In this document: in pieces, positions 21,806 through 61,812 of the stretch
Layout of the letters: each line of letters begins with the position of its first letter
Position numbering within the stretch: the first letter of the stretch is position 1
Assembly: GCA_029204225.1 (NCBI GenBank)
Contig: CM055098.1
Span: 52,286,728-52,350,727 of the forward strand
Source: Diphasiastrum complanatum
Taxonomy: Eukaryota; Streptophyta; Lycopodiopsida; Lycopodiales; Lycopodiaceae
Direction: 5' to 3'
Length of the DNA stretch: 64,000 bases
Made by a program: the position numbers and the translations under genes
The notes under the pieces: model-generated
Database searches by the model: none
Told to the model about the DNA's origin: nothing
What the model saw: only the letters and a program-made list of their open reading frames with translations

Positions 21806-22165
21806 TGTAAAAATTACAGCAAATAAAGTTTTGGGCAGGTATGAGTAGCCCTAAACCTATCCCTAATGCTAATTTTGGTGGATCTTTCATCCCTACCAAG
21901 TTAGGGTTGGAATCTTGGAGATCCCTCAACAATGCAAAAATTACCAAAAATAGCTCCTATTTTTTATCCCTTGTATCTAAGCATAATTTGGACTCATTCC
22001 AAAGGTTCTAACACTTAGGTCTACTTGAGAACATCCTTATGAATGGAATCCTATGCTATTTGGCACGTGTTACAAGCCACATCATGACCATCTAACTATT
22101 TACAAGTCATATGACCAAAACTAGTCAAGCTAGAATTGTGAATTTTTAACACTCCTCCTCACTAT

Positions 22166-25100
22166 CTAGCTTGGTTCAATCATTGCTTTACTAATCACTC
22201 CAAGTGATGATCTGAACTTCATAAAAGGTGTCTTTTGAAGTGGTTTAGTAAGTAGATCAGCTACACATTCATTGCTTGGAACATGCTCCAAAGCAATCTC
22301 CTTGGCTTGCACCATTTCTCTCACAAAGTGATGGCATATCTCAATGTGCTTAGATCTTGCATGGAAGATTGGGTTAGATGCAAGGTGTTGGGCTGATATA
22401 TTGTCATTGTAGATGATTGGTGCCTCCTCTGAATCCATGATCTTTAGTTCCACCAATAATCTCTTGATCCAAAGTACCTCCTTTGTAGTGGTTGTCAAAG
22501 CTTCGTACTCGGCCTCGGTTCAAGATAGAGATATAGTTTCTTGCTTTTTTGAAAGCCATGAAACCACACCTTCTCCTATGAAAGTTGAATAGGCACCTGT
22601 TGATTTCCTATCTCTCTTGTCCCCTGCAAAATCTGAATCACTAAATGCATGAAGGTTAATCACATCTCCTCTATATAGAATCCCAAAATCCAATGTACCC
22701 GAGATGTATCTTAGAATCCTCTTAGCCTTTTTCCAATGGATATTCAATGGCTTTTGCATGGATTGGCTCAACCTGCATACACTAAAGCTAAGATCTGATC
22801 TAGTTATAGTGATCCACATTAAGGAACCTATAAGTTGCCTAAACAAAGTGATGTCCATGAAGGATCTTTTATCATCTTCATTTGGCACTTTTACATCTTG
22901 CTCCATTGGTGTGTCAACACTTTTGCATACTTCCATCTTAAACTTCTTCAAAAGACTTTGAGCATAGTTTACTTGACTTATAAAGATAAAATCAGACCCT
23001 CTAAGTACTTCTATGCCTAAGATGAAGTGAAGACACCCTAGATCTACCATCTTGAACTCTAAGGATAGATCTATCTTGATTTTTTCAATACCATCAACAC
23101 TATTTCCACTAATGATGATGTCATCTACATAAATGAGTAAAAGTACAATACCAACATCATCAAACTTAATGTAAAGAGTGGGATCATATTCACTTTGAAC
23201 AAAAGAAAGTGAAATAAGATAGCAATGTAGTCTTGAATTCCAAGATCTCGAGGCTTGCTTCAAGCCATAGATGCTTCTTTGGAGATGGCATACTTTGTTC
23301 TCCATTCCATGCTTGATGAACCCTTGTGGCTGCTCCATATAGATATCCTCTTCCAAAAAACCATTCAAGAAAGCATTAGAGACATCCATTTGACATAGAA
23401 TCCATCCAAAATGTGATGCAAGTGCAATGATTAGTCTTATTGTGACCATCTTGGCCACGGGTGCAAAAGTTTTCTCATAGTCTATCCCTCTCTCTTGAGC
23501 ATAGCCTTTTGCAACTAATCTTGCTTTATGTTTGTTAACACTCCCATTTGCATTCAACTTAAGCTTGAAGACCCACTTTCATCCTATTACATTCCTTTGA
23601 GGTCTCTCAACAAGCAACCAAGTTTCATTCTCAATCAAGGCATCATACTCATCCAACATAGCTTTATACCATTCTTTGGAGTGCAATGCATCTTCAACAT
23701 TAGATGGTTCTTTGAAACTAGATAAAGCATAAGAAGTGGATGAGATACCCTCAACTTGCTGTCCTTTGCCTTGATATGTGAGCCTTGATGGCTCCACTTT
23801 TGCCCTTGAAGATCTCCTTGGTGTGATAGGTGGGTTTGGTGCTTGCTCCTCCATGAGCTCCTCCTCAAAACCAAGATCTTGATCCTCGGCCATCTTCTTC
23901 TTGATTGTTGGAGCACTTGAGCCTTCTTCAAGCATATGCATATGATGTTCATCAAAGATGACATCCCTTGAAACAACAAATTTGTTCAAGGATGGGAGAT
24001 AGACTTTGTAGCCCTTGCTTGAGCTTGCATATCCAAGCATGATCCCTCTTGTGGAAGATGGATCCTCCTTGGTTCTTGTTTCCAATGGCACATGCACATA
24101 ACATATACACCCAAAAATTTTCAAGTGATTAAGATTGGGTTTCTTTCCATACAACATCTCATAAGGAGTTTTGCCTTCAATTGCTTTGCAAGACACCCTA
24201 TTCAGCAAGTAGTTTGCACATACAAGAGACTCGCCCCAAAAGGATTTGGGCAAACAAGCATCTAATCTTAAAGCCTTAGAACATTCACATAATGTTCTAT
24301 TCCTTCTTTCAGCAACTCCATTTTGTTGAGGAGTGTAAGGACAAGAAGTCTCTTTCTTGATCCCTTCCTCCTCACAAAAGGCCTTGAACTCATTGGAGAT
24401 GAATTCTCCACCATTGTCACTTCTAAGAATCTTGATGCTATGATTATGATGCTTTTCCACAAACAACTTGAACTTTACAAAAGTATCAAATACTTGAGAC
24501 TTGAAGGAAAGTAAGAACACCCAACAATATCTTGAGTAGTCATCAATGAAGGTTAAAAACATGGATGAACCTCCATTAGATTTGGTGCTAGCAATGTGCA
24601 CATCCGAGTGTATGAGTTCAAGAGGATGAGATGACTTTGTGATGGAGTTAGGAAACACCTTCTTATGTGCCTTGGATAAGGCACAAGCTTCACAAACCTT
24701 GTCTTCCTTCCCAATAGACCTTGGTAGGCCTAAAGCATACTCCTCCTTGATCATAGCCTCCATGGAACCCGAGTTGACATGTCCAAGTCTTTTGTGCCAT
24801 AAAGTAAAGGTAGATATCTTGCTCTTCTCGGCCAACATGACAACATTAGTATCCACAAATGCATCCAGCTTATATAGTTTGCCAAGTCTAGTGCCCTTAG
24901 CCACTATCTTACCCTTCTTCTTGATGAAACATTCATTTGAAGCAAAGTCAACATTGAAACCATTGTCTACCATTTGGCCAACACTTAGTAGATTCTTTGT
25001 TATTGTAGGAATGTACAAAACACCTTCTATGTTGATCTTTTTGGAAGATCCTAAGCAAAGGGGAATGCTACCAACTCCTTCAATCTTACAAGCTTCATCA

Positions 25101-26134
25101 TTTGCTGTATATATAGACTTTATAGGTCCATCATAAGATAAGAGAGAAGAGAAAAACTCCCTTTTACTAGTCATGTGTGAACTAGCACCCGAGTCAATCC
25201 ACCAAGGATCTTCTCCTTTGAAGCTTGTTGAAGAAAATATGGACATCATGAGAGAGTCCTCATGTGAACTCTCCTCCTCCTCCTCTTTGCTCATGTTGGC
25301 TTGGCTTTGATCTTGCTTCCTCTTGAAGCATTCCGAGGCATAATGCCCCATCTTGCTACAATAGTAGCACTTCACGTTTGACTTGTCCTTCTTGACTTTG
25401 GTGGTTGACGGAGATGCCTTTGGGGGTCCTTCTTGATCCTCAAGCTTTGTAGACTTCTTGATTGTTGATCCTTTGCCTTTGGACTTGCCTTTGCCTTTGG
25501 TGAAGAGAGCTTGGTCATCTTCACCTTGGATGGAAAGCCTATCCATCCTCTCTTGCATTTGGCTCCTTCTTGATTCCTCGGCCATGAGTGTGCCTTGGAG
25601 TTCTTCAAGTATGGGTAGCTTACCCATAATTGCATATCCCTGAACCAAATTGTCAAATTCAAAGCTTAGTCCATTCAATATGAGTTGAACAAGCTCTTCA
25701 TCCTTGATAGGGTCACCTATAAAGGCTAGCTCTTTGTTCAATTCCTTTACTCTTAGGACAAAAGTATGTGCACTCTCTCCTTTCTTTTGATAGCTTCTAT
25801 AGATTTGATTCTTCAAAGCTAACATTCTAGTTTGGTTCTTGGATTCATAGACCTTTTGCAAAGTCTCCCAAGCATCTTGAGCTGAAGTGCAATCTCCTAC
25901 CTCTCTTAAGAGTTCATTTGCAACATTCATTTTTATGCAATGTAGTGCAACATTGCACCTCTTGATGTATTTGGCTTTTTCTTGAGGATGAATAGGTTCA
26001 CCCTCCTTACCATTTACAATTTCCATCAGATCTTGCATGATCATGATAGATTCCATTCTAACTTTCCATATGGAATAGTTAGTTTTGTTGAGCCTTTCAT
26101 TAGTATCCAAAAGATATGCATTTATAGATGCCAT
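22166..26134 (-). pseudogene. Family A gag-pol with two nonsense codons
   Basis: Same 1322-codon layout as the intact copy at 57148-61116: gag, knuckle CYYCSKMGHYASEC, protease WWIDSGASSH, integrase HSDVH / LRSDNGGEF / PQQNGVAERRNRT, RT with YVDD, and RNase H. One stop is TGA at 23579-23581, where the intact copy has the Cys codon of the RT start IGCKW. A second is TGA near 22520-22522, where the intact copy has Ser of STEAEY. Everything else stays in frame, so the copy decayed only recently. Gag, protease and integrase (851 codons) remain open. Confidence 0.93.
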
Positions 26135-26946
26135 CTAGTCTCCTAATCAAGGACTTGACACAAATGAAGGTTACTTCTATTGATTTGATTGAAGTTCTAT
26201 CTTATCCCACTTCTTAGGGACCTGAAAAGATCAGTAATAGACTTCCTATAAAGATCTAAGAATGATCTCTAACAAAATCAAATCATAGAATACTAGAAAC
26301 AATGCACTTGCTTGATTGAAGTAGACAATACTAGTAGAATTGCCCCTCTTTCTATAAAGAACATTAAAGCTTCCAAATGATCTGATCAAGAGTGAATTTC
26401 AGCAACCTAATATACTTCCAAAATCACTTGTAAAAGATCTAAATGGAACTTAATGAGGATGCAACACAATCTACTATCCAATCACAAGCAAAAAATGATC
26501 AAAATTGATGAAAAAATTGATCTAATTTGGTGCATAAGTCAAGCAATGGTTGGACTGAACCTAAATCACTTTAGGAGGTGTCTACTACACCTTAGAACAG
26601 CCTTGAAGAGTCCCCAAAACTCTGATCTTCCCTCTCCTTGAATGCTAGAAAGCCTTCTCTATGAAATCACCTCCAAAACTCGCTTAGAAATCAATGCTTG
26701 GAGCAAGCAAAACTTGCTATCTTGGTAATGTGAATTGAATTCAACTTTGCCTCTGGTTTTAGACACCTAAACACCTGCAAATGAAGTCACACAACACCAA
26801 TCTCCAATGTATTTGACTCACTTTGAGTTCTAGAATCAATACTAGATGCTAAGATCCAATCTACACAAGATTTAGATCAAAAATTGTGATCAAATTGAAT
26901 GAAAACCAAGGATTTAGCTCATTTCAGCCTTTAGGCTCTGATACCA

Positions 26947-27628
26947 TGTAAAAATTACAGCAAATAAGGATCCTAAAACACTTGAAATGATGAGGGAAAC
27001 AATAGATTATGATTTCATAAGATTAGCACAAGTTGAACCATCAAAATCCATCAAAAATCTATGCCTGAACCTCACTAAATGGCCCAAATCCTTGAAGAAG
27101 GCTTCACACGTGTGAAAGTACGGCCTCCCACAGTCTGAGTACTGTACACCAGACCTACATTCAATCCTATAATCATTAGTAATCACAAGCACTCAAACAA
27201 TTATGAACATAGAGAGCAATTGCACCATTATGAGAGAAAAATCATGAAATTGCTTGATTGATTTTGGTGAGATATCATCACCTATATATACATGATCCAT
27301 CACGGTTTTGGTCAGGTATGAGTAGCCCTAAACCTATCCCTAATGCTAATTTTGGTGGATCTTTCATCCCTACCAAGTTAGGGTTGGAATCTTGGAGATC
27401 CCTCAACAATGCAAAAATTACCAAAAATAGCTCCTATTTTTTCTCCCTTGTATCTAAGCATAATTTGGACTCATTCCAAAGGTTCTAACACTTAGGTCTA
27501 CTTGAGAACATCCTTATGAATGGAATCCTATGCTATTTGGCACGTGTGACAAGCCACATCATGACCATCTAACTATTTACAAGTCATATGACCAAAACTA
27601 GTCAAGCTAGAATTGTGAATTTTTAACA
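26947..27628 (-). repeat. 5' LTR of family A minus copy, 682 bp
   Basis: TG...CA ends: TGTAAAAATTAC at 26947 on the plus strand and TTTTTAACA at 27628. It carries a TATATATA box complement near 27285 and the module CTTCACACGTGTGAAAG at 27105 beside GTACGGCC and GTACTGTAC words. Confidence 0.92.
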
Positions 27629-29112: not shown

Positions 29113-29812
29113 TGTAAAAGATCTCAGATCATTACGATCCAATCCACTTGAAAGATCTTTGGTTAGAAAGAGAAATACACTACCAATCTCACCGATGTAG
29201 AAAAATCAGCATCTACACACAAAATGAGATGCAATCGTTAATAGAACTTGATCAAACTTGAATGAAATGATAAAGTACTATTTCTATATGCACAAAACCA
29301 AAAAGCTACTGTATTTCACACGTGTGGATCCAAAAATATCAAATATAGATCATTCTACACATAGAATTGCATGCAAACACAAGTATAGTGCACCAATGGA
29401 TAGTAGAACCCAAGAGAACCATGTATAAGCATGAAATGAGATAGAGAAGAGAGAAGATCACTCTCTCCCTAGGCTACATCCTTTTATAATAGGTCCAAAC
29501 CCTATTTGGCCACTTGACTTTTCCTCCAAAATGCTAACCCTATATGTTTTGGTCTAGATTCAAAATACCCAACATTCAAATTTGAATCTACTCAAACGCG
29601 CCTTCTAACTTTTTCACACTTTCAAAAGTGTTTATTCAAATGACATTTAGACTAATGAACTTTGAAAAGTCAATCTCTAAGTCTAGAAACAAAGTTGGCC
29701 TCAATATGCCAAATATGAAAATATAGCAAATATGATCAAACTAGTTCAATCTCTCACATTTTGCACTCCATTTGTGCTACTTTTTGAATATCAATGATGC
29801 ATACAAGTAACA
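29113..29812 (-). repeat. 5' LTR of the second B2 element, about 700 bp
   Basis: Contains CACACGTGTG at 29317 and a minus-strand TATA box (complement of CTTTTATAATAG) near 29490. The right end AAGTAACA at 29812 is placed by the TG...CA rule and because ParB-like gene sequence begins shortly after. Confidence 0.65.
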
Positions 29813-29841
29813 CCCAAAAATGCATCTGATTCAAGTTTAGT

Positions 29842-32492
29842 GGATCTGAAGAGGATGACTCTCGGACTCCTCTAAAGAAATCTCAATAAAAAAAACCTGC
29901 TGATCCTCCTCGATTTTCTAAACTTGTGAAGTTGAAGTGCCTTAATTATGAGTTGGTCATCAAATATAATCAGGAGGACGAAATGAAGTTATGCTTGTGC
30001 CGAAAGCCGAGGTCAGAGGTATATTTGAAGGAGTCTAAATGTTGTGGCCCGGTCACATGGGTGGATTATGAAGGAGAGGATGATTTGGATACTCTTATTT
30101 TGACAATTGAGGATCCAAATAATCAGAAGCATTCAAAGAAGTTGTTTGTAGTCAATGAGAAGCTTTGTCATATTGATTTATGTTCTTCATCTATACTTTC
30201 ACGACGTTTATCTAACTCGAATAATATGACTCTTACCCTTGGTCCATTTATGCGAAAGGAAGTATCAGTGGAGCCTCCTTCTATAGATGATGGATCATCA
30301 AAAAGGAAGGTTTTGGAAATGGAGAACTCTAGAAGAATCTGAAAGGCAAGGTTTATGAAGAACCCCAGATGGATAAATCAAAGAAACACCCGACAAAGAA
30401 GAACAAAAAATTGAACTGAGCAGCTGTTCTGAAGAGGAAATGAAAAAGGAGTTGTCTGGATTTTGAGCAGTGAGGTCTTTAGTTCTGAACATAATATTAT
30501 ACGGGAAAGTGTGGTCAGGGACAAACTAGTTAGTCACTGAATCTTTCAATTACCAATTTCTAGAATTCATAGACCATTGGTTGATCTAGGTACTCAACGA
30601 AGACCTCTTGAAGTTCGGGCTCCTCATAAAGTTCATGTATCAAATTTGATGAAGAAAATGAAACTTAATCCTCATGCAATTGTTGTTCCATTTATAATTT
30701 TAGTGGATCCTGATCAGGGTTTTCAAAAATATAATTACGTAAAGTGAAATTTGAAAATTTTAAGAGTTATTTTTGGTGCCCTAGAATGTTAATAATGTGC
30801 GTGTTTACGTTCTACCAGCCAAAACCTGCTAAAAAAATTACTCGTCGGGCTTTACAAAGAGGCCCAACGGGTCCCGCCGGGCTTTACAAAGGAGCCCACT
30901 AGCCAAAACCTGCCAAATAGATTACCTGTCGGGCTTTACAAAGAGGTCTTGACGGGCTTTTTTGTTGAGCCCGACAAGCTAATCCACCGGCCAAACCAGT
31001 CCAAGCATCACCAAAAAGTGACTTTTGGTTTTTTCACATAATAATGTCAAAAAAAAAGTTATTTTCATGAACAAGTAGAGTAAATACATCAATATGAAAA
31101 CCCTGATCCTGATGAATGCCCATCTAAGAAAGACTTCAAAGAGGAAAAAGCCATGAATTATAATTACTTTGTTATTGGTGGATCACATTCTGCTGAGGCA
31201 TGTAGAGAACTTATGGCCATGTACCCTGCCCCCATAGTCTTCGAGTTTGTGGATTACAAGGTTTTCACAGATTTAACGACCGAAGAAGGAAAACTACTAG
31301 CCTTGGACCACAATAATTATAATGATTATCGAACAAAGATGTCATTTATTGAAAAAAAAAAAAATTCGTCATGAATTTGAGGACCATCTTGCTAAGCATT
31401 GGAAGGTTGATATAAATCTCAGGCGCACATGTTTGCTTGAAGTCAGAGTTTTTATCGATGAGTCTGAGAGGTTCGACGGATTAGGACATTTTGATTTGTT
31501 ATTTCAACTGACCTTCTGTAGTGGAAAAATCTGGGAGCTTCAAGATAAAATCTTTACTATGTGGGAGAACAAGGAGCTAAAAGGCCAAAAGACTAATAGA
31601 ATAAAAGATGAAATTGCGGGTGAAAAAAAATCAAAAAATAAAATAAAAGATTTGCTTGTGGAGGAGCTACCAGAGGATATGAAAGGACATCTTTGGAGAT
31701 CCTTGTAGGGAGTTAAAGATGAGGTGGTACTCACCTCTATGTTGACTCGAGTTATTGAGAAGATATTGTCTCTAGAAGAAATGGCCAAATAATTTTTCCA
31801 AGTAAGTATTTTTCTGATAAGTGTGTCTTAATTTAATTTAAGTGTGCCTAGTTTTTAACTTAATCATGTGCCTTACATAATTTATTTTTTTGCAGTCATA
31901 AAATTTTCACGAAAATACAAAAAGTCATGGTGCGAAGGCTAGCTTGTAGAAATTGGGAGGAAGTCACAACAAACTATCCGCTTTCAAGCTCTCATGCTGC
32001 CCTTTCCGAATATTTCTTGTTGTTTAAAAATTTTAAGGTGATACTTATTTTCATTACCATATTTGTTTTACAACATGGTTTGTTTTATAATCTAAAGCGA
32101 TGATTTATGTTGTTTACAGCCAAAGCGGGTGAAGGGTGTGGATACAATTGATTGCCCATCCAATTTTTTAATGCATATAGAGAGGGCAAAACAAGAGCAC
32201 ATGAGTATTGAAATATGCGGTAACATGCCTTTTCTTTCGGAAGAATTTAAGACCTTTATGAATAATGATCCCACTATTAGCCCCATGTATTATAAAATTT
32301 TTGCTTGCCGAATTCTATTAATGATGAGAAAGCATTTACCTTCAAACAAATATCGTAGATGATTGCAGATTTCAAAGCTTTCACCACAGCTCAAATGTGG
32401 AGATTTCTTGTATTTCATAATGCTACACAAACAGCTTCGGTGCTTGCATCATTAAGAGAGCACACTCATGGATCTGAAAATATGATGTGGTG
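29842..32492 (+). pseudogene. Relic of a multi-exon plant gene with a ParB-like domain
   Basis: This is not transposon sequence. Exon-like blocks, in order: 29842-30340 (KLKCLNYELVIKYNQEDE, a Cys-rich KLCLCRKPRSEVYLKESKCC, TWVDYEGEDDLDTLILTIED); about 30540-30738 (RRPLEVRAPHKVHVSNLMKK, KLNPHAIVVPFIILVDPDQ); about 31084-31800 (DECPSKKDF, FVIGGSHSAEACRELM, LLALDHNNYN, then HEFEDHLAKHW and a long charged segment); 31897-32035 (RNWEEVTTNYPLSSSHAALS); 32120-32492 (VDTIDCPSNFLMHIERAKQE, MWRFLVFHNATQTASVLA). Likely introns are 30739-~31083 (GTAAAG start), 31804-~31896 (GTAAGT...TTTTGCAG) and ~32036-32119 (GTGATA...TTTACAG). The order of a PxxHxxxL-like stretch, GGSHSAEA and a following ALxHN block is what a ParB/sulfiredoxin-type fold shows; that assignment is inference. 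It is broken by stops (near 29884, 30538, 31706, 31796, 32359) and a slip in a 13-A run near 31351-31363. It is cut at 32492 by a G element. Confidence 0.6.
30820..31010. repeat. GC-rich direct repeats in the first intron of the ParB-like gene
   Basis: The word CGGGCTTTACAAAG occurs three times (about 30847, 30882 and 30930), with AGCCAAAACCTGC before two of them and GACGGGCTTTTTTGTTGAGCCCGAC forming a short hairpin near 30950-30980. It interrupts AT-rich intron sequence and may be a small non-coding insertion; no terminal repeats or target duplication were confirmed. Confidence 0.55.
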
Positions 32493-33516
32493 CCCAAGCT
32501 TCTTTGGCTGTTGTACAAGTACCTATCTCCCTCAATATCTCATTAGAGACATTCATCTTAATGTAGTGGAGAACCATCCTAGCTCTCTTTTTGTATTTTT
32601 GAACCTCTTGAAGAACTTGTGGTTCTTCTTCAAGGCCAAGAACTATGTCCATCACGTCTTGAAGGATCAAGATGGACTCCATCCTCATTTTCCAAATTGA
32701 ATAGTTTGAAGTGGTCAATCTTTCACTTGGTTCCAACAAGGATGAACCCATTGAAGACATTTGAAGTGAAGAAAACTCAAATGATGAACAATAAATGTTG
32801 CTACACACTCTCAATAGGATCCATTAATAGAGTACTATCTCCTCCTATGAAAGATCTTGCAACTATTTGTGAATTGATTCTCACTAGCTACACAAATCTC
32901 TCTAAAACAAGATCTATTTCACATCAAATGATGGAGTATAGGCAAAGTTAGGATCAAACACTCTTAGCACGTGTGAAGTACTCTAAGAAACCAAATTTGA
33001 CTCAAATACAATGATATTGCATGAAACAAAATGGCAAAGATCTCAAAACAGTGCCTAGATCACATGTAGATGAGATTGGCAAGCATACAATTGTGATTTT
33101 GGATCAACCAAGCAATCTCTTGACCAAACCAAATGTGTCCACCCAGGTCTAGGTGCCCTACCTAACCCTCTTCAAAAGCTTATAGCTTTTGATAGGCTCA
33201 ACCAAATGGAATGAAACTGATTGCATCAGAAACTAGCAAAAATAGCTTCAAAACAAGCTATCAAGCAAGATAAATGGATCAAGCATGAGAGAGAACTACC
33301 AAACTGAAATTGGATGTTCTTCACATGTGTCTGAGCACCTGATTCCGTACAGTACCAGGTCAGACCCAATCAATGTCCTTTTGATCTCTTTTGATCCAAG
33401 ATTGAACAAGATAGCTAGGAAAATGGGCCTTGACAACTTCTAGCTCAAGATTGATGAAATTTTTTTCACTTAGATGGATCAAAATGCATGGTAACCTTAG
33501 GTAGGCTATGATACCA
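32493..33516 (-). pseudogene. Family G gag start and leader, minus copy
   Basis: Minus-strand gag from about 32757: MSSMGSSLLEPSERLTTS, then NYSIWKMRMESILILQDVMD and HYIKMNVSNEILREIG, ending at CTTAKEAWA, where it abuts the ParB-like relic at 32492/32493. Only the N-terminal third of gag is left and the frame is intact that far. The leader 32815-33500 carries a primer site complement ending GATACCA at 33510-33516. The protein resembles families D and E. Confidence 0.8.
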
Positions 33517-34175: not shown

Positions 34176-35703
34176 TCCTACACCTAGATGCTTGATGTAA
34201 AAAACATAAGACCCCTATATCTAACATAGATAATCTTTTTCAATTCTTCACATATTTCATGATTATTCGTGCATGTTTCTTGATCATTGATCTAGGGTCA
34301 GGTGAAACCAACTTTGGTTCTACGTCTACTCATCTGATACCTACAGGAATCACAAACTTAGACAACCAATTTATTTGAAGAACGCTTACAACGGGCTTGC
34401 GGCTGATCTCCAGCAAAGGGTAACCAATCCTGTCATAATTTCAAAGTTCAAATGTCAAGTTTAAGAACTTGAAGTCATTGAAGACTTGGCCATCTTCAAG
34501 GACTTCCACAAAACTTGCATTTAGAACAAGTATACAGAAATACATTACCTTTTCAATAGTCTACAAAAATACACTATGTTTTCAATAGCTTCGACTTTTT
34601 TGCATTTCCCCGAAATGCGACACTTGCATAGTTCAAAAGTTTTATTTTTAACACACCTTCGACTTCTTGCGATAAAAAAAAAATGAAGAGAGAGAAAATC
34701 ACGAAGGTCATCTATTCTCATAAGTTAAACTGTTTTAAAGACCATCGTGTTTTTGAGGGCACCTTCGGCTTATTTTAAAAAATGCAAAGAGAGAGAAAAA
34801 TCTTGAAGGTTGTCTAAAATAAACGAGGAACGTTCCAACGATGTCCTCGTCCACGTCAACGGTGCTGAATTATTGACCGTAAATATTGTGTACAGTTGTA
34901 ATAGAAGCCATATACTTCCAAGTACAACTGCATTTCTAATTAGGTGACAAGCATTCAATGTAATTAATACACAGATGAAGTCTATAAATAGATCATCCAA
35001 GCACAGATTACGAGTTGCTCCGTCCATGAGACACATTATTTGAGCCTCCCAATTACGTCGTCATTTCTTGTTGTAATTATTATTTTGTATTGTGCTTGCA
35101 GTAGCTTGCTTTTATCTGTGTACAATGTAGATGAATGCTTGTTGTGATTGAACGCACTTTCATTGCTGTTTGATCGTGCTTGTTTACTCACTCTAATCTA
35201 AAAACAAGTGTCTACGACTCCTCAGTTTTTGATTAGACGATGGATGTCTTTGACGCCTGAGAAACTCGCGTTATCATATTGCTCTTCTATTTATTTCAGA
35301 GCTATACTTTACGTTGAATCTGATTTCAGTAGTACCACATACAAACCATATCTAATCTCTTCGGTGGACTGTACTCTTGTTTCAAAGTATGAATTAATTT
35401 CTTAAAATCTTGTTGGGCAATTAGAACACATAAAGCTGTGATTACATTTAGCATAAGCTGCCTATTAGACTGTTTTTGCATTTAGCAGTTGATTACAACG
35501 GGAGAGCTGTTCCGAAATATTCCTGCTCTCTTCTCCATTCGCGTTCGTCTATCTCCCTTGCCCCATCAGAGATGAGCTTGTTGGGACTTCATTTTTTTCA
35601 TGAAGTACTTCTCTTACATGTGAAACTACTTTGGATATCAATCTATGCATCTATCTTTGCCTCTTTGCCATAGATTTTGATGTAGATCTTGGATTTCAGT
35701 CTA
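34176..35703. other. Unassigned region with a tandem repeat and a TATA-like box
   Basis: No recognisable coding sequence. At 34657-34720 and 34759-34816 two diverged copies (CACCTTCG...AGAGAGAGAAAA...TTGAAGG or ACGAAGG) repeat at about 101 bp; a weaker third start lies near 34588. CTATAAATAG at 34982-34991 is a good TATA box on the plus strand, of an unknown unit, perhaps a solo LTR. Confidence 0.35.
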
Positions 35704-40750: not shown

Positions 40751-40866
40751 TGTGAAGAATTGCCAAAAATTGGCAAATCTAGCTTGATCAAAAACCATGT
40801 AGAATAGTGTAAATTGTGTACACAAGTGGGTCCCACACATGTGAGGCCATGATGCCACATGGGAAA

Positions 40867-41519
40867 TGTGAAAAACTCAGATCCAAAAGATGCTAAAGTT
40901 TCATAAAGATCTTGGCCATGGAAGTTATGCACATCTAGATTGAAAAAATGATAGAAATTGTGATGTTAAGCATACTAAACATCAACTAAACATCAAAATC
41001 TGATCATAAGCTTCCACAAACAGAAACTTGCTGTCCCTGTCCGTACTTCAGAGCCTACAACCTGCATTTCACACGTGTGAAGCCATAGCAACAAAGAAAT
41101 CACAATTCTAGTGGCTAGAATGCAAGATATGAACAAAAAAGTGAGAGAGAAGAAGATGGACCTTCAAAGAGCATAACATTCATTCAATAGAATGAAAATG
41201 AGATGTGTACATACTCGTGGAGATGGCTATTTATAGCAGCCATAGTGCCTCTTGGCCACTTGTCTTATGATAGGCTAAAATTGGGGTCCAATAGGATTCA
41301 CCCATATACCTAGAAATTTGGTCAAATAGGAATGCACCAAATTATGAGCCAATAGAAGAGCTCCACACTCGACCTCCTCTAATTAATGTGACCTCAAAAG
41401 TAGTGTACACATACTTTGGGCCTCTACATACATGTATGAACCTATCTCTAACTTTTATTTGGCCATAGGCCTACAAAATCTCAAGTTAGGAAAATACTAC
41501 TAGTTGACAATTTTTCACA
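40867..41519 (-). repeat. 3' LTR of family B
   Basis: Identical by eye to 46075-46727. It contains CACACGTGTG at 41070 and the TATA box CTATAAATAG (complement at 41228-41237). Confidence 0.95.
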
Positions 41520-44500
41520 CTCCCTCTTCAACTAGTTTTAGCATAGATTTAGAAAGTACACCAAGACTTGTTCTATGCTTGAAAAATAAGTCCTTTCCCA
41601 ATGCTTTGGTAAAGATATCAGCCACACATTCCTTTGATGGGACATGTTCAAGCTTGATCTCTTTTGCCAACACTTGTTCTCTCACAAAATGGTAAGCCAC
41701 CTCGATATGTTTGCTCCTTGCATGGAAAACCGGATTGCTTGCTAGACTTTGGGCTGAAAGGTTGTCACAAAAGATGATTGGACTCTCTGAAAAATCCAGC
41801 AAATGAAGCTCCATAATCATCCTCTTGATCCACACCATCTCCTTTGTGCATGATGTCAAAGCTTTGTACTCGGCCTCACTAGAAGAAAGTGATATAGTTG
41901 CTTGTTTCTTCGACATCCATGAGATAGCTCCATCACCTATGAAAATAGCATGTGCATTTATGGATTTTCTATCCATAAGGTCTCCTGCAAAATCTGAATC
42001 TGAAAAACCAAATAAGTTAGGTGATGAGCCTCTATAAACAATGCCAAAATCTTTTGTTCCCGAGATGTATCTCAAGATCCTCTTTCCTAGTTTCCAATGT
42101 TCTATGCTAGGATCTTGCATGAATTGGCTTAATCTACCAACACAATAAGATAAATCAGGTCTTGTGATGGTTAGATATATAAGAGAACCTATTAGCTTCC
42201 TATAGAGAGTAATGTCCTCGAAGGATCTTTCATTACCTCTTATAGTTAGCTTTACATGTGATTCCATAGGTGTATCAATAGGATTTGCATCTACCATATG
42301 AAATCTATTGAGAATAGAAATAGCATACTTCTCTTGTGAAATAAAAGTGATTTGAGAAGTTCTAATTACTTCTATTCCTAAGATATAGCTCAAAAGACCA
42401 AGATCATGCACTTCAAATTCCTTTTTTAGTGCTTTCTTGATATCTTCTATATCTTCCTTGTTCCCTCCACTTAAAATAATGTCATCCACATAAATTAGAA
42501 GGATTGTAACATCATTAGCACTAATTCTAAAGTAAAGTGAATGATCATACTCACTCATAGTGAAGTTTTGAGAAAGTAGAAAAGAGTTAAGCCTAGCATA
42601 CCAACTCCTTGGTGCTTGCTTAAGACCATACAAACTTTTTTGTAGAAAACACACATGATTAGGCTTGCTATGAGAAACATAGCTCTCGGGTTGCTCCATG
42701 TAGACTTCCTCTTCAAGATCACCATTCAAGAAAGCATTAGAAATGTCTAATTGCCAAAGATCCCATCCATAAAGAGTTGCAAGGGAAATGATTACTCTTA
42801 TGCTCACCATCTTTGCCACGGGTGCAAAGGTTTCCTCATAGTCAATGCCATGCTCTTGAGCATAACCTTTAGCCACCAACCTTGCCTTCAACTTGTTGAT
42901 AGATCCATCTTGATTTGTCTTTACCTTGAAGATCCATTTGCATCCAATTGCACTTTTGCCCTTTGGAAGCTCCACCAATCTCCATGTGTTGTTCTTCATA
43001 AGTGCTTCAAACTCAAGATCCATTGCTTGGATCCATTCCTCTTCTTGCCTTGCTTCATCTACACATGAAGGTACATCAAAAGAAGTTAGGAAAGCATAGT
43101 TGGATCCATCCACCACTTGCTTACCTTTGCCATCATAAGTGAGCCTTGAGGGTTTCACTTTATGCCTTGGAGTTCTCCTTGGAATTTGACTTGAAGAGGC
43201 TTCTTCAACATCCACATCCAATGTGTCATCAACTCCATTGTCATCAAGCACATTAGTTGCAACAACACCATCATCACTTGAAACAACTTTTGGAATGTTA
43301 CCTTCATCAAAAATGACATCCCTACTTGTGAACACTTTCTTGATTGAAGGAACATAAATCCTATATGCTTTGCTTACTTCACTATAACCAACAAAAATGC
43401 CCTTTCTTGAAGATGGATCCTCCTTAGTTCTATCATCAAGAGTAATGTTGAAGTAGCAAATGCATCCAAAAGTTCTTAGAAACTTGACATTAGGCTTCGT
43501 ACCAAACAAAGCTTCAAAAGGGGTTTTTCCTTCCAATACAACACTTGGCCATCTATTGCATAGGAAATTTGCACACAACAAAGCATCACTCCAAAAAGGT
43601 TTAGGAAGATTAGCATTCAATCTCATTGCCTTTGCACTCTCACACAAGGTTCTATTCTTCCTCTCGGCCACTCCATTTTGTTGTGGTGTTCTTGGACATG
43701 TGTACTCCCTCTTGATCCCATGCTCATCGCAAAAGGCTTTGAATTTGTTAGAAATGTATTCACCACCATTGTCGCTCCTCAAGCATTTGATTTTGGTTGT
43801 AAATTGAGTCTCAATAGCAACTTTGAACTTGACAAACACATCAAACACCTCATCCTTGCTCTTTAGTAGATAAACCCAACAAAATCTACTAAAATCATCA
43901 ATGAAAGTTACATACATCTTAGCACCTCCATTGCTAATTGTAGTAACACCATGAATATCCGAATGCAAGAGAGAAAAAAGCATCTTAGATCTAGATATAG
44001 ATCTAGTATATGGCAATCTATGTGATTTAGACAAAGCACATTCTTCACAAACATGATTCAAGCAAGTAAGAGACTTGGGAAGTCCCCTTACTACCTCCTT
44101 TTTGGCTATTACCTCCAAGGCCTTGTAGTTGAGATGTCCCATCCTTTTATGCCATACCTCTTGAATTGACATTTGTTCATTTGCCATGCATCCAACTTGG
44201 TTAGCAACAACACATGCATCAAGCTTGAACAATTTCCCTTGCCTTTTCCCTTTTGCAATGATACTACACCCCTTTTTGATCAAGCAAGCATCACCATCAA
44301 ACTCAACTTTGAATCCTTTGTCAAGCATTTGGCTTACACTAAGTAAGTTCTTGGTAATGGATGGAATGAGCAAAACATCTTTCAATTCTATATTCCTATT
44401 TGTAGAAAGTGAAATAGGAATTGTGCCAATCCCCTTGATTGCACACTCACCATCATTTGCGGTATAGATTACCTTCCTATCACCATCAAATGCCATTAAA

Positions 44501-45465
44501 GATGAAAAATACTCTTTATGATATGTCATATGAGAAGTGGCTCCACTATCAATCCACCAAGGATCAATGTCTCCATGATTAGCCAACAAGCAAGATGACA
44601 TAACAAAAGCATCATTTGAAAGAAGCTCATCCCCACCCTCATCAATAGTTAGATTGGTTTGCTTTTCCCCTTGATCCCTCTTTTTCTTAAAACAATCACT
44701 AGCAAAATGCCCTTTGACTCCACAATAGAAACATTTTAGCTTAGATCTATCCTTCTTTTTGCCAAAAGTAGAGTGCTCACCTTGGTCTTGCCCTTTAGAC
44801 CAATTGCTTTTACCTTTGCCCTTGAACTTGCCTTTAGAGAACATTGCCTCCTCTTCTCCTCCTTGAGATGTAGAAGATGCTCCCACTCTTGCTTGCAACC
44901 TGAATTCTTCAGCCAACAAGACCTCTTGCAAGTCTCCAACACTTGGTAAACATTTTTGGATAGCATAACTTTGAACAAGATTAGCATGATCATCCAACAA
45001 GCCATTGAGAATCACTTGAACAAGCTCCTCATTATTTATGCCATCATTAATGCATGCTAACTCATCATTCAATGCTTTAACTCTCAAAACAAAAGCATGT
45101 CCATTCTCACTCTTCTTTTGCATACAAGAAAAGATTTGCCTTCTTAAAGTCAACACTCTAGAAGTAGACTTGGATTCATAAACCTTCTTCAAGGCTTCCC
45201 AAGCTTCACTAGATGATGTGCACTTACCAACCTCTTTGATAAGCTCATTTGTCACATTCATCTTGATCATGTGAAGGGCTTTCTTTGCCCTCTTGTCATA
45301 CCTCAATTGTTCTTGAGGTGCCAAAGGTCTCTCCTCCACACCTACAACAATATCCATCAACTCATTCATCTCAAGCAAAGACTCCATCCTTACTTTCCAA
45401 GTAGAATAGTTGAGGGAGGTAAGCCTATCATTGCTTTCCAACATGTAGCCTCCATTTGTAGCCAT
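41515..45465 (-). CDS. Family B gag-pol polyprotein, intact
   Basis: 1316 codons in one frame, the normal size for a copia polyprotein. Gag opens MATNGGYMLESNDRLTSL; the zinc knuckle CFYCGVKGHFASDC is at residues 245-258; protease Asp is 306 in WWIDSGATSH; the GAG-pre-integrase zinc part has HKRMGHLNYKALEV and CEECALSKSH; integrase catalytic residues are D503, D565 and E601, giving the expected DDx35E spacing; RT carries YVDD at 992-995; RNase H has FSDSDFAGD and SSSEAEYKAL. The end SMLKLVEEGV runs into the LTR. All catalytic motifs look whole. Expected role: particle formation, cDNA synthesis and integration. With identical LTRs this is a candidate for current activity. Confidence 0.96.
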   Translation of the reverse strand: MATNGGYMLESNDRLTSLNYSTWKVRMESLLEMNELMDIVVGVEERPLAPQEQLRYDKRAKKALHMIKMNVTNELIKEVGKCTSSSEAWEALKKVYESKSTSRVLTLRRQIFSCMQKKSENGHAFVLRVKALNDELACINDGINNEELVQVILNGLLDDHANLVQSYAIQKCLPSVGDLQEVLLAEEFRLQARVGASSTSQGGEEEAMFSKGKFKGKGKSNWSKGQDQGEHSTFGKKKDRSKLKCFYCGVKGHFASDCFKKKRDQGEKQTNLTIDEGGDELLSNDAFVMSSCLLANHGDIDPWWIDSGATSHMTYHKEYFSSLMAFDGDRKVIYTANDGECAIKGIGTIPISLSTNRNIELKDVLLIPSITKNLLSVSQMLDKGFKVEFDGDACLIKKGCSIIAKGKRQGKLFKLDACVVANQVGCMANEQMSIQEVWHKRMGHLNYKALEVIAKKEVVRGLPKSLTCLNHVCEECALSKSHRLPYTRSISRSKMLFSLLHSDIHGVTTISNGGAKMYVTFIDDFSRFCWVYLLKSKDEVFDVFVKFKVAIETQFTTKIKCLRSDNGGEYISNKFKAFCDEHGIKREYTCPRTPQQNGVAERKNRTLCESAKAMRLNANLPKPFWSDALLCANFLCNRWPSVVLEGKTPFEALFGTKPNVKFLRTFGCICYFNITLDDRTKEDPSSRKGIFVGYSEVSKAYRIYVPSIKKVFTSRDVIFDEGNIPKVVSSDDGVVATNVLDDNGVDDTLDVDVEEASSSQIPRRTPRHKVKPSRLTYDGKGKQVVDGSNYAFLTSFDVPSCVDEARQEEEWIQAMDLEFEALMKNNTWRLVELPKGKSAIGCKWIFKVKTNQDGSINKLKARLVAKGYAQEHGIDYEETFAPVAKMVSIRVIISLATLYGWDLWQLDISNAFLNGDLEEEVYMEQPESYVSHSKPNHVCFLQKSLYGLKQAPRSWYARLNSFLLSQNFTMSEYDHSLYFRISANDVTILLIYVDDIILSGGNKEDIEDIKKALKKEFEVHDLGLLSYILGIEVIRTSQITFISQEKYAISILNRFHMVDANPIDTPMESHVKLTIRGNERSFEDITLYRKLIGSLIYLTITRPDLSYCVGRLSQFMQDPSIEHWKLGKRILRYISGTKDFGIVYRGSSPNLFGFSDSDFAGDLMDRKSINAHAIFIGDGAISWMSKKQATISLSSSEAEYKALTSCTKEMVWIKRMIMELHLLDFSESPIIFCDNLSAQSLASNPVFHARSKHIEVAYHFVREQVLAKEIKLEHVPSKECVADIFTKALGKDLFFKHRTSLGVLSKSMLKLVEEGV

Positions 45466-46074
45466 GTTGCAATGATTGATCTCTGATCTTTGACCTGTTC
45501 CAATGCACTAAGCACTCTCTTGAATCAACAAATGAAACACAAGAAGAAATCACAAAGATTTGGAACCTAAAACCTTACTTTTTCTCTCTTTTCCTCACTT
45601 TTTCCTTAATTTTAGCCACTAGTTTTATGATTTCTTGATCAAACCAAGACCAAACCTCAATATACTTGCTTTTCCCTCACTCCTAAGATTGAAATACACT
45701 CTTGAATCATTCAGCAAACTGAAAATCAGAGGGTTACATCAATTTTGAAGTTTTTGACATGAAGAAGCAAGAAATTGAATCAAAAAACTATATGCTAGAA
45801 TGGAAAACTAATAGGATCTTGTTGGATCTTGCATCTCCCTCTTTCCAAAACAATTTTTGTCTCCTTATTCTGATAAGTACAGAGGGAATTCGCCCTACTT
45901 CAATTGAAATGCATACAAATGATGTTTTGATCACAAAGATCCAATTTCTACACATAAATCAACAAGATTTTTAGCTAGAAACTTGATTGGAATGCTACAA
46001 AAGCAAACTCGCCCACAAATCTCTTCTAAATCTGGCAAAACCTGCACATTTGGCCGCCTAATGCTCTGATACCA
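45466..46074 (-). other. Family B leader and primer site
   Basis: About 610 bp of untranslated leader from the primer site (46063-46074) to the gag ATG at 45465. No ORF stands out. Confidence 0.8.
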
Positions 46075-46727
46075 TGTGAAAAACTCAGATCCAAAAGATG
46101 CTAAAGTTTCATAAAGATCTTGGCCATGGAAGTTATGCACATCTAGATTGAAAAAATGATAGAAATTGTGATGTTAAGCATACTAAACATCAACTAAACA
46201 TCAAAATCTGATCATAAGCTTCCACAAACAGAAACTTGCTGTCCCTGTCCGTACTTCAGAGCCTACAACCTGCATTTCACACGTGTGAAGCCATAGCAAC
46301 AAAGAAATCACAATTCTAGTGGCTAGAATGCAAGATATGAACAAAAAAGTGAGAGAGAAGAAGATGGACCTTCAAAGAGCATAACATTCATTCAATAGAA
46401 TGAAAATGAGATGTGTACATACTCGTGGAGATGGCTATTTATAGCAGCCATAGTGCCTCTTGGCCACTTGTCTTATGATAGGCTAAAATTGGGGTCCAAT
46501 AGGATTCACCCATATACCTAGAAATTTGGTCAAATAGGAATGCACCAAATTATGAGCCAATAGAAGAGCTCCACACTCGACCTCCTCTAATTAATGTGAC
46601 CTCAAAAGTAGTGTACACATACTTTGGGCCTCTACATACATGTATGAACCTATCTCTAACTTTTATTTGGCCATAGGCCTACAAAATCTCAAGTTAGGAA
46701 AATACTACTAGTTGACAATTTTTCACA
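46075..46727 (-). repeat. 5' LTR of family B with promoter
   Basis: The TATA box CTATAAATAG on the minus strand is at 46435-46444, with CACACGTGTG downstream of it at 46278. That order (TATA first, palindrome second along the transcript) puts the palindrome in the transcribed R-U5 part. Primer site follows at 46063-46074. Confidence 0.93.
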
Positions 46728-55654: not shown

Positions 55655-56336
55655 TGTTAAAAATTCACAATTCTAGCTTGACTAGTTTTGGTCATATGAC
55701 TTGTAAATAGTTAGATGGTCATGATGTGGCTTGTCACACGTGCCAAATAGCATAGGATTCCATTCATAAGGATGTTCTCAGGTAGACCTAAGTGTTAGAA
55801 CCTTTGGAATGAGTCCAAATTATGCTTAGATACAAGGGAGAAGAAATAGGAGCTATTTTTGGTAATTTTTGCATTGTTGAGGGATCTCCAAGATTCCAAC
55901 CCTAACTTGGTAGGGATGAAAGATCCACCAAAATTAGCATTAGGGATAGGTTTAGGGCTACTCATACCTGCCCAAAACCGTGATGGATCATGTATATATA
56001 GGTGATGATATCTCACCAAAATCAATCAAGCAATTTCATGTTTTTTCTCTCATAATGGTGCAATTGCTCTCTATGTTCATAATTGTTTGAGTACTTGTGA
56101 TTACTAATGATTATAGGATTGAATGTAGGTCTGGTGTACAGTACTCAGACTGTGGGAGGCCGTACTTTCACACGTGTGAAGCCTTCTTCAAGGATTTGGG
56201 CCATTTAGTGAGGTTCAAACATAGATTTTTGATGGATTTTGATGGTTCAACTTGTGCTAATCTTATGAAATCATAATCTATTGTTTCCCTCATCATTTCA
56301 AGTGTTTTAGGATCCTTATTTGCTGTAATTTTTACA
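55655..56336 (+). repeat. 5' LTR of family A with promoter
   Basis: TGTTAAAAATTC...AATTTTTACA. A TATATATA box lies at 55993-56000. The module GGTGTACAGTACTC / GAGGCCGTAC / CTTTCACACGTGTGAAGCC runs over about 56130-56181, with the palindrome at 56169, downstream of the TATA. Confidence 0.95.
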
Positions 56337-57147
56337 TGGTATCAGAGCCTAAAGGCTGAAATGAGCTAAATCCTTGGTTTTCATTCAATTTGATCACAAT
56401 TTTTGATCTAAATCTTGTGTAGATTGGATCTTAGCATCTAGTATTGATTCTAGAACTCAAAGTGAGTCAAATACATTGGAGATTGGTGTTATGTGACTTC
56501 ATTTTCAGGTGTTTAGGTGTCTAAAACCAGAGGCAAAGTTGAATTCAATTCACATTACCAAGATAGCAAGTTTTGCTTGCTCCAAGCATTGATTTCTAAG
56601 CGAGTTTTGGAGGTGATTTCATAGAGAAGGCTTTCTAGCATTCAAGGAGAGGGAAGATCAGAGTTTTGGGGACTCTTCAAGGCTGTTCTAAGGTGTAGTA
56701 GGCACCTCCTAAAGTGATTTAGGTTCAGTCCAACCATTGCTTGACTTATGCACCAAATTAGATCAATTTTTCAGTAATTTTGATCATTTTTTGCTTGTGA
56801 TTGGATAGTAGATTGTGTTGCATCCTCATTAAGTTCCATTTAGATCTTTTACAAGTGATTTTGGAAGTATATTAGGTTGCTGAAACTCACTCTTGATCAG
56901 ATCATTTGGAAGCTTTAATGTTCTTTATAGAAAGAGGGGCAATTCTACTAGTATTGTCTACTTCAATCAAGCAAGTGCATTGTTTCTAGTATTCTATGAT
57001 TTGATTTTGTTAGAGATCATTCTTAGATCTTTATAGGAAGTCTATTACTGATCTTTTCAGGTCCCTAAGAAGTGGGATAAGGTAGACCTTCAATCAAATC
57101 AATAGAAGTAACCTTCATTTGTGTCAAGTCCTTGATTAGGAGACTAG

Positions 57148-60100
57148 ATGGCATCTATAAATGCATATCTTTTGGATACTAATGAAAGGCTCAACAAAAC
57201 TAACTATTCCATATGGAAAGTTAGAATGGAATCTATCATGATCATGCAAGATCTGATGGAAATTGTAAATGGTAAGGAGGGTGAACCTATTCATCCTCAA
57301 GAAAAAGCCAAATACATCAAGAGGTGCAATGTTGCACTACATTGCATAAAAATGAATGTTGCAAATGAACTCTTAAGAGAGGTAGGAGATTGCACTTCAG
57401 CTCAAGATGCTTGGGAGACTTTGCAAAAGGTCTATGAATCCAAGAACCAAACTAGAATGTTAGCTTTGAAGAATCAAATCTATAGAAGCTATCAAAAGAA
57501 AGGAGAGAGTGCACATACTTTTGTCCTAAGAGTAAAGGAATTGAACAAAGAGCTAGCCTTTATAGGTGACCCTATCAAGGATGAAGAGCTTGTTCAACTC
57601 ATATTGAATGGACTAAGCTTTGAATTTGACAATTTGGTTCAGGGATATGCAATTATGGGTAAGCTACCCATACTTGAAGAACTCCAAGGCACACTCATGG
57701 CCAAGGAATCAAGAAGGAGCCAAATGCAAGAGAGGATGGATAGGCTTTCCATCCAAGGTGGAGATGACCAAGCTCTCTTCACCAAAGGCAAAGGCAAGTC
57801 CAAAGGCAAAGGATCAACATTCAAGAAGTCTACAAAGATTGAGGATCAAGAAGGACCCCCAAAGGCATCTCCATCAACCACCAAAGTCAAGAAGGACAAA
57901 TCAAAGGTGAAGTGCTACTATTGTAGCAAGATGGGGCATTATGCCTCGGAATGCTTCAAGAGGAAGCAAGATCAAAGCCAAGCCAACATGAGCAAAGAGG
58001 AGGAGGAGGAGAGTTCACATGAGGACTCTCTCATGATGTCCATATTTTCTTCAACAAGCTTCAAAGGAGAAGATCCTTGGTGGATTGACTCGGGTGCTAG
58101 TTCACACATGACTAGTAAAAGGGAGTTTTTCTCTTCTCTCTTATCTTATGATGGACCTATAAAGTCTATCTTTACAGCAAATGATGAAGCTTGTAAGATT
58201 GAAGGAGTTGGTAGCATTCCCCTTTGCTTAGGATCTTCCAAAAAGATCAACATAGAAGGTGTTTTGTACATTCCTACAATAACAAAGAATCTACTAAGTG
58301 TTGGCCAAATGGTAGACAATGGTTTCAATGTTGACTTTTCTTCAAATGAATGTTTCATCAAGAAGAAGGGTAAGATAGTGGCTAAGGGCACTAGACTTGG
58401 CAAACTATATAAGCTGGATGCATTTGTGGATATTAATGTTGTCATGTTGGCCGAGAAGAGCAAGATATCTACCTTTACTTTATGGCACAAAAGACTTGGA
58501 CATGTCAACTCGGGTTCCATGGAGGCTATGATCAAGGAGGAGTATGCTTTAGGCCTACCAAGGTCTATTGGGAAGGAAGACAAGGTTTGTGAAGCTTGTG
58601 CCTTATCCAAGGCACATAAGAAGGTGTTTCCTAACTCCATCACAAAGTCATCTCATCCTCTTGAACTCATACACTCGGATGTGCACATTGCTAGCACCAA
58701 ATCTAATGGAGGTTCATCCATGTTTTTAACCTTCATTGATGACTACTCAAGATATTGTTGGGTGTTCTTACTTTCCTTCAAGTCTCAAGTATTTGATACT
58801 TTTGTAAAGTTCAAGTTGTTTGTGGAAAAGCATCATAATCATAGCATCAAGATTCTTAGAAGTGACAATGGTGGAGAATTCATCTCCAATGAGTTCAAGG
58901 CCTTTTGTGAGGAGGAAGGGATCAAGAAAGAGACTTCTTGTCCTTACACTCCTCAACAAAATGGAGTTGCTGAAAGAAGGAATAGAACATTATGTGAATG
59001 TTCTAAGGCTTTAAGATTAGATGCTTGTTTGCCCAAATCCTTTTGGGGTGAGTCTCTTGTATGTGCAAACTACTTGATGAATAGGGTGTCTTGCAAAGCA
59101 ATTGAAGGCAAAACTCCATATGAGATGTTGTATGGAAAGAAACCCAATCTTAATCACTTGAAAGTTTTTGGGTGTATATGTTATGTGCATGTGCCATTGG
59201 AAACAAGAACCAAGGAGGATCCATCTTCCACAAGTGGGATCATGCTTGGATATGCAAGCTCAAGCAAGGGCTACAAAGTCTATCTCCCATCCTTGAACAA
59301 ATTTGTTGTTTCAAGGGATGTCATCTTTGATGAACATCATATGCATATGCTTGAAGAAGGCTCAAGTGCTCCAACAATCAAGAAGAAGATGGCCGAGGAG
59401 CAAGATCTTGGTTTTGAGGAGGAGCTCATGGAGGAGCAAGCACCAAACCCACCTATCACACCAAGGAGATCTTCAAGGGAAAAAGTGGAGCCATCAAGGC
59501 TCACATATCAAGGCAAAGGACAGCAAGTTGAGGGTACATCATCCACTTCTTATGCTTTATCTAGTTTTGAAGAACCGTCTAATGTTGAAGATGCATTGAA
59601 CTCCAAAGAATGGTATAAAGCTATGTTGGATGAGTATGATGCCTTGATTGAGAATGAAACTTGGTTGCTTGTTGAGAGACCTCAAAGGAATGTAATAGGA
59701 TGCAAGTGGGTCTTCAAGCTTAAGTTGAATGCAAATGGGAGTGTTAACAAACATAAAGCAAGATTAGTTGCAAAAGGTTATGCTCAAGAGAGAGGGATAG
59801 ACTATGAGGAAACTTTTGCACCCGTGGCCAAGATGGTCACAATAAGACTAATCATTGCACTTGCATCACATTTTGGATGGATTCTATGTCAAATGGATGT
59901 CTCTAATGCTTTCTTGAATGGTTTTTTGGAAGAGGATATCTATATGGAGCAGCCACAAGGGTTCATCAAGCATGGAATGGAGAACAAAGTATGCCATCTC
60001 CAAAGAAGCATCTATGGCTTGAAGCAAGCCTCGAGATCTTGGAATTCAAGACTACATTGCTATCTTATTTCACTTTCTTTTGTTCAAAGTGAATATGATC

Positions 60101-61116: not shown

Positions 61117-61130
61117 ATAGTGAGGAGGAG

Positions 61131-61812
61131 TGTTAAAAATTCACAATTCTAGCTTGACTAGTTTTGGTCATATGACTTGTAAATAGTTAGATGGTCATGA
61201 TGTGGCTTGTCACACGTGCCAAATAGCATAGGATTCCATTCATAAGGATGTTCTCAGGTAGACCTAAGTGTTAGAACCTTTGGAATGAGTCCAAATTATG
61301 CTTAGATACAAGGGAGAAAAAATAGGAGCTATTTTTGGTAATTTTTGCATTGTTGAGGGATCTCCAAGATTCCAACCCTAACTTGGTAGGGATGAAAGAT
61401 CCACCAAAATTAGCATTAGGGATAGGTTTAGGGCTACTCATACCTGCCCAAAACCGTGATGGATCATGTATATATAGGTGATGATATCTCACCAAAATAA
61501 ATCAAGCAATTTCATGTTTTTTCTCTCATAATGGTGCAATTGCTCTCTATGTTCATAATTGTTTGAGTACTTGTGATTACTAATGATTATAGGATTGAAT
61601 GTAGGTCTGGTGTACAGTACTCAGACTGTGGGAGGCCGTACTTTCACACGTGTGAAGCCTTCTTCAAGGATTTGGGCCATTTAGTGAGGTTCAAGCATAG
61701 ATTTTTGATGGATTTTGATGGTTCAACTTGTGCTAATCTTATGAAATCATAATCTATTGTTTCCCTCATCATTTTAAGTGTTTTAGGATCCTTATTTGCT
61801 GTAATTTTTACA
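61131..61812 (+). repeat. 3' LTR of family A plus copy
   Basis: Same length as the 5' copy (682 bp); TATA at 61469-61476 and CACACGTGTG at 61645. Ends AATTTTTACA at 61812, directly against minus-strand D-type RT. Confidence 0.95.

Follow-up and report, generated by a model that had tools for sequence, protein, structure and literature searches.

The gene relic at about 29794-32492 on the + strand of the window (the whole 64,000-nucleotide stretch of DNA analysed here, C7:52286728-52350727) is very probably what is left of the second ORF in a two-gene DNA transposon of the cut-and-paste, Sola-like kind, a dead copy of a gene for a ParB-like and methylase protein. In the element as we reconstruct it, gene 1 would be transcribed leftward and encode a DUF7869 transposase, probably of the DDD type. 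Gene 2 would be transcribed rightward, and its predicted product begins with a variable N-terminal part, which is followed by a ParB-like domain, then a linker, and finally a beta-class N6-adenine/N4-cytosine methylase with its motifs in the order IV (DIPY), X, I. The first-pass annotation of this DNA had taken the relic for a member of a little-known host gene family, a reading that gives way to that of an accessory ORF of a high-copy DNA transposon.

Extent and damage of the relic

The relic stems from a single gene of subfamily B (A, B and C are groupings by similarity, made without a tree) and preserves an ORF for a ParB-like and DNA methylase protein that is truncated at its 3' end. It holds all three peptides noted in the first-pass annotation. 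The relic extends slightly beyond the span of 29842-32492 originally given: an ATG at 29794 opens the start peptide of the family, MMHTSNTQKC, known from L011, and is followed in frame by stops at 29827 and 29887. The N-terminal part (29794-30342, + strand, main open stretch 29890-30342) contains no known domain. It had been described as Cys-rich, but the subfamily C rows align one cysteine only, in the ..LC.. near the end of this part. A zinc-binding, Cys-rich N-terminus was considered and rejected, because the cysteines are mostly not conserved across subfamilies.

The ParB-like domain follows on the same strand in two halves, the first at 30541-30714 (HRPLVDLGTQRRPLEVRAPHKVHVSNLMKKMKLNPHAIVVPFIILVDPD, with evidence from L001) and the second at 31114-31350 (YFVIGGSHSAEACRELM ... 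LTTEEGKLLALDHNNYNDYR, aligned to phage ParB via relatives). A charged linker region (31351-31801, + strand) comes next, with a frameshift at an A-run near 31355-31366 and stops near 31707 and 31790 in the frame that follows. The methylase half beyond this linker had been missed in the first-pass annotation. Beyond a first intron, an exon at 31896-32037 (+ strand, SHKIFTKIQKVMVRRLACRNWEEV...) leads to a second intron and to an exon at 32120-32490 (+ strand), in which the methylase domain begins. This exon has lost, by a deletion at 32298/32299, the stretch that codes for motif IV (DIPYG) in L020 and L022.

Homology to the family stops at about 32490, where a copia-like gag ORF fragment on the opposite strand starts (32452-32823, - strand, with similarity to another copia copy from 32493) and cuts off the relic. 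Queries with the C-terminal (methylase) sequences found no match anywhere in the window, and a search of the window detected no transposase remnant. With its early stops, a MITE insertion, the frameshift, the further stops, the motif IV deletion and the copia truncation, the window copy is dead, and the stops, frameshift, deletion and truncation support the earlier view that it is pseudogenised.

Introns and a MITE insertion

The two halves of the ParB-like domain are separated by 391 bp (30715-31105), which had originally been read as the main intron in a chain of exons with GT...AG introns. The insert has the ends CAGGGTTTTCA and TGAAAACCCTG as terminal inverted repeats and an 8-bp duplication, ATCCTGAT, on both sides (left copy 30707-30714, right copy 31106-31113). 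In L006, L007, L008 and L011 the reading frame runs through the insert site without a gap, and the BLAST blocks of L003, L004, L006, L011 and others join at the ATCCTGAT duplication. The insert also recurs in the genome with identical end points: of the 53 matches listed (best 40 of 187 candidates), 8 extend over positions 1-391, the window copy among them. The 8-bp duplication and the CAGGG ends correspond to those of hAT elements. We therefore rejected an intron at this place in favour of a hAT-like MITE, which carries an 8-bp duplication and has empty sites in other copies. Several copies of this MITE family show reverse-oriented matches around positions 123-185.

The other part of the proposed exon chain stood. 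Two genuine GT-AG introns, at 31802-31895 (GTAAGT...TTGCAG, + strand) and 32038-32119 (GTGATA...TTACAG, + strand), have counterparts at the same two places in L020, and L021 retains the donor of the first and the acceptor of the second. The first-pass annotation had set its reading against that of a transposon ORF lacking intron-bearing homologues; what we found is a transposon ORF, and L020 is a homologue that does carry the introns. The conservation of the introns among copies indicates that the family spread as DNA, not as RNA.

The relic belongs to a large repeat family with a methylase half

A 91-aa query from the window (31084-31356) was searched against the same genome (a 1.74-Gb assembly of 5,176 contigs). 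It matched itself and 149 other places, all at E <= 4.7e-11 (best 150 of 1,099 first-look candidates), so that the window relic belongs to a large repeat family and the occurrence of the three peptides in their order is not due to chance.

The better-preserved copies run on past the ParB-like part into what is, by homology, a beta-class N6/N4 DNA methylase. The C-terminal ORFs of L019, L022, L023 and L024 all pass the PF01555 cut-off (3.8e-8, 8.6e-10, 3.6e-9 and 8.8e-8, respectively); two further pieces in the same Pfam scan, an N-terminal one and one from L023 with motif IV, had no match. When an alignment of 10 C-terminal pieces was compared with the PDB, the best matches were M.RsrI (2.8e-8), MboIIA, CcrM and DpnA; altogether, 12 sequences were returned at E <= 0.01, a chance match to an antibody chain included. 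With a composite plant query, 805 phage records were hit at E <= 0.01, and those listed had 30-32% identity.

In the relatives, [DN]IPYG is followed by KPQ and then by DLFSGSG, which we take to be motifs IV, X and I, respectively. Motif IV reads [DN]IPY instead of the canonical DPPY, with Ile in place of the first Pro. The 37 fetched plant loci overlap in part, and many of them do not reach across these regions; the motif IV pattern was present in 10 and the motif I pattern in 14.

In a genome search with PF01555, all 150 scored places (best 150 of 1,605 first-look candidates) were above the cut-off, and they were distributed over every one of C1-C24. A query with the motif IV region likewise yielded 1,436 candidates, of which the best 150 were scored. 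As these candidate counts are rough, a figure of over 1,000 copies is an estimate.

Two local arrangements of methylase copies were seen in passing. At C22:12333634-12347569, four copies lie on the same strand about 4.5 kb apart, possibly as a tandem array. L013 and L014 (C3:21.89 Mb and C2:36.03 Mb) have an 8-kb stretch around the methylase relic in common at 99%, with a copia-like gag ORF inside, which is probably a recent segmental copy.

The middle domain resembles ParB

The first-pass annotation had proposed a ParB-like domain, and the comparison of profiles bears this out in part. A 28-row plant profile (9 of 37 rows, with fewer than 50 residues, were left out) aligned to 13 phage ParB domains with a score of 29.3 (P 2.8e-4, probability 41%), and a 14-row alignment (A2) with a score of 31.3 (P 1.2e-4, probability 55%). 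Shuffling the columns of the 28-row profile gave 300 decoys, none of which scored above 18.2. Against full-length phage proteins, the score of the plant profile falls to 24.1 (P 0.012, probability 4%). The aligned block takes in GGxHxxxA and the following LTxEExxLA.

Conventional searches did not name the domain. PF02195 found 0 matches in the whole genome, and the same profile detected matches in 11 of 14 control genomes; Pfam, NCBIfam and PDB searches with the ParB-like part or with single copies did not name ParB. Single-sequence structure models of two window pieces had pLDDT values of 40 and 43 (the latter for 31114-31368), too low for a comparison of folds. As PF02195 and the PDB gave no match, the ParB fold is one that we infer.

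These misses in PF02195, the PDB and Pfam would suit the view that the resemblance is due to chance and the middle domain something else, which we consider unlikely. None of the 300 shuffled decoys reached the real score, and the GGxHxxxA and LTxEExxLA blocks were both matched in the alignment. A divergent phage ParB domain (L039), compared on its own with the other phage ParB domains, scored 32.1 (two more phage domains scored 56.9 and 96.7), as against 29.3-31.3 for the plant profiles. Moreover, the order of ParB-like and methylase parts is the same as in a methylase of Wolbachia phage WO. The middle domain is thus likely, if not proven, to be ParB-like, an assignment that draws on weak profile-profile scores together with the domain architecture.

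Transposase, element ends and target duplications

In subfamily C, and also at the diverged subfamily A locus L008, a DUF7869 transposase lies upstream of the methylase gene on the opposite strand, in a head-to-head arrangement. The match to DUF7869 reaches 7.2e-35 in L015 and 2.9e-48 in an element on C17. Inspection by eye of the DUF7869 ORFs showed Asp residues in GMDQ, QLDN and GHTHDQID, candidates for a DDD triad. DUF7869 was not named in the literature searched.

Two subfamily C loci could be extended to the full element. Both start with AACACGATGAC and end with GTCATCATGTT, and the C17 copy measures 9,108 bp. In these two complete copies the 11-bp inverted ends, AACACGATGAC and AACATGATGAC, are identical at 10 of 11 positions. 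Target duplications of 4 bp (AACT, GTAG and TTCC) flank three of the four distinct copies with both ends resolved, and the fourth (C17:16.35 Mb) has an imperfect duplication, TTCT/TTTT. A second C17 copy has the flanks of the first and was treated as a segmental copy, the pair being counted once. Among the other copies fetched for their ends, the one on C13 has a damaged 5' end, and the pieces on C8, C20 and C3 are without one or both ends. The two C17 copies (38033413-38042496 and 38163575-38172682) lie about 120 kb apart in opposite orientation with the same flanks and the same target duplication, apparently the result of an inverted segmental copy.

The linkage of the two genes is not random. 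In a search with a subfamily C transposase query (best 150 of 2,559 candidates), a transposase was found within 9 kb of 15 of the 150 methylase places, compared with 0.23 expected, in divergent orientation in 14 cases and convergent in one; the remaining 135 places had no transposase within 9 kb among the matches listed. Some of the 15 linked pairs appear to repeat a single locus, the repeats lying on unplaced contigs (C4185 and C4661 with C12; C3616 with C20), which leaves about 12 independent ones. In a set of 40 close subfamily C copies, five had a transposase within 9 kb (0.06 expected), all divergent. In the relatives, the methylase gene thus lies inside the element on the strand opposite to the transposase, with the exception of same-strand pairs at L015, two C6 copies and one C15 copy and of one convergent C6 pair; the window copy has no adjacent transposase.

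With the general PF25273 (DUF7869) list, co-location was weaker: 3 of 150 methylase places had a match within 10 kb among the matches listed (0.26 expected), perhaps because many of the DUF7869 elements in this list lack a methylase. In the genome, all 150 scored DUF7869 places were above the cut-off (best 150 of 2,953 first-look candidates). DUF7869 matches are therefore more numerous than methylase matches, suggesting that many elements may be without a methylase gene.

Could the copies instead form a host gene family, amplified by segmental duplication, to which transposons are merely adjacent? Spread via DNA rather than RNA, as seen from the conserved introns, would fit such a history, and so would local clusters such as that at C22:12.33-12.35 Mb and the 99% identical stretch common to C3 and C2. 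This origin is nevertheless very unlikely, since element ends with 4-bp duplications enclose both genes, the linkage to the transposase is non-random and mostly divergent, scored matches occur on all of C1-C24, and close copies have dN/dS values of 0.67-1.23 (see below).

Selection on the ParB-like and methylase parts

Ratios of dN to dS were calculated by the Nei-Gojobori method. For the ParB part, 31 between-subfamily pairs among 10 loci were compared; dS was estimable in 10 of these, often exceeding 1, and saturated in 21. The estimable pairs had dN/dS values of 0.05-0.34 in eight cases and of 0.45-0.47 in two, both involving L017. Pairs within subfamilies A and C had values of 0.05-0.44. 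All six pairs formed by L006, L011, L014 and L015 were in the range of 0.67-1.23, and the more distant L003 gave 0.10-0.17 against the same four loci. For the methylase part, the 15 pairs of six C-like loci fell into nine with dS above 1 and dN/dS of 0.18-0.22, and six with dS below 1 and dN/dS of 0.26-0.88.

These values support purifying selection where copies have diverged and nearly neutral decay where they are close, with the low values made rough by saturation. Small ratios on long branches, with an increase towards 1 between closely related copies, are the pattern of a gene that is needed during the activity of the element and is near neutral after insertion. The same values bear on the idea that the transposon captured the methylase as a passenger without function. 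In an unsystematic reading of the ORF tables of fetched copies, none was seen open throughout, as would be expected of a passenger. Set against this, diverged copies compared with each other mostly have dN/dS below 0.35, in the ParB-like as in the methylase part, and they keep motif I, so that a passenger role appears improbable. High copy number and signs of purifying selection between diverged copies, taken together, rather suggest that the methylase helps the element to spread.

Relation to known systems and possible role

A protein of this type is described for the brown alga Ectocarpus, in which the DNA transposon Sola1-1_Ec32 encodes one protein with ParB-like and N4/N6 methylase parts on the strand opposite to its transposase; the same paper cites examples from red and green algae (PMC12477816). 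Compared by description, the Ectocarpus family is 21.5 kb long with a 1,104-aa product, whereas the plant element has 9.1 kb and hundreds to perhaps more than 1,000 copies. Sola elements are characterized by a DDD transposase, 4-bp target duplications, lengths of mostly 2-9 kb and TIRs from 11 bp, and are present in the moss Physcomitrella (PMC10741241). By description, the plant element is like them in its 4-bp duplications and TIRs. Retrotransposons of charophytes and dinoflagellates with captured methylases are likewise mobile elements with their own DNA methylase, but theirs is a C5-cytosine enzyme and they are not DNA transposons (PMC5890265). Transposon proteins of the ParB-like and methylase type are already reported in algae, and what is new here is the plant, the very high copy number and the selection signature. 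The literature searched contained no land-plant ParB-methylase; the primary references behind the Ectocarpus account (pmid 21507349 and pmid 40345196) and Bao 2009 (PMC2727372) may describe some.

Phage and bacterial proteins with ParB_N and N6_N4_Mtase domains are a further point of comparison. The Wolbachia phage WO methylase (QHJ75445.1) scores 26.4 bits with ParB_N (cut-off 26.3) and 96.4 bits with PF01555, and has the same order of ParB, motif IV, motif X and motif I as the plant protein. The plant protein differs in its extra N-terminal part, long charged linker, introns and DIPY instead of DPPY, and its ParB-like domain goes undetected by PF02195. Proteins with ParB and N6/N4 methylase parts are frequent in prokaryotic viruses, with 311 phage records matching at least 80% of the phage WO protein, which could hint at a relic of an endogenous large DNA virus. 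Yet the element is 9.1 kb long and has two recognized gene regions, inverted ends, 4-bp duplications and a transposase. The ParB-like alignment, used as a query, found no relative in viral contigs, and a viral origin, which we regard as extremely improbable, was rejected on this ground.

In the proposed transposon, the ParB-like part may tether the enzyme to the DNA of the element itself, where the methylase might mark N6-adenine or N4-cytosine. Self-methylation could benefit the element by allowing escape from host silencing, or by readying its ends for transposition or controlling it. That a vascular plant carries a very large DNA transposon family that writes adenine or N4-cytosine methylation on itself via a ParB-guided, bacterial-type methylase is a tentative proposal, which we consider possible but doubtful. 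If true, ParB-guided self-methylation would provide the element with a mark that lies outside 5mC silencing in plants. On this high-copy family, 6mA/4mC in a vascular plant could be put to a concrete test, the other transposons of the genome serving as the control.

Other repeats in the window

The window is rich in copia-like retrotransposons, recognized from gag-pol ORFs and repeats. Three of them (40866-46373, 55655-61430 and 21828-27604) have LTR-like direct repeats, separated by 5.2-5.5 kb, with 99-100% identity over 300 nt, and are probably recent insertions. Two of these, 55655-61430 and 21828-27604, are inverted copies of each other at 99%. L003 has flanking repeats in common with the window copy on both sides (window 29423-29758 and 34253-35003), suggesting that the two relics may derive from a common degraded locus.
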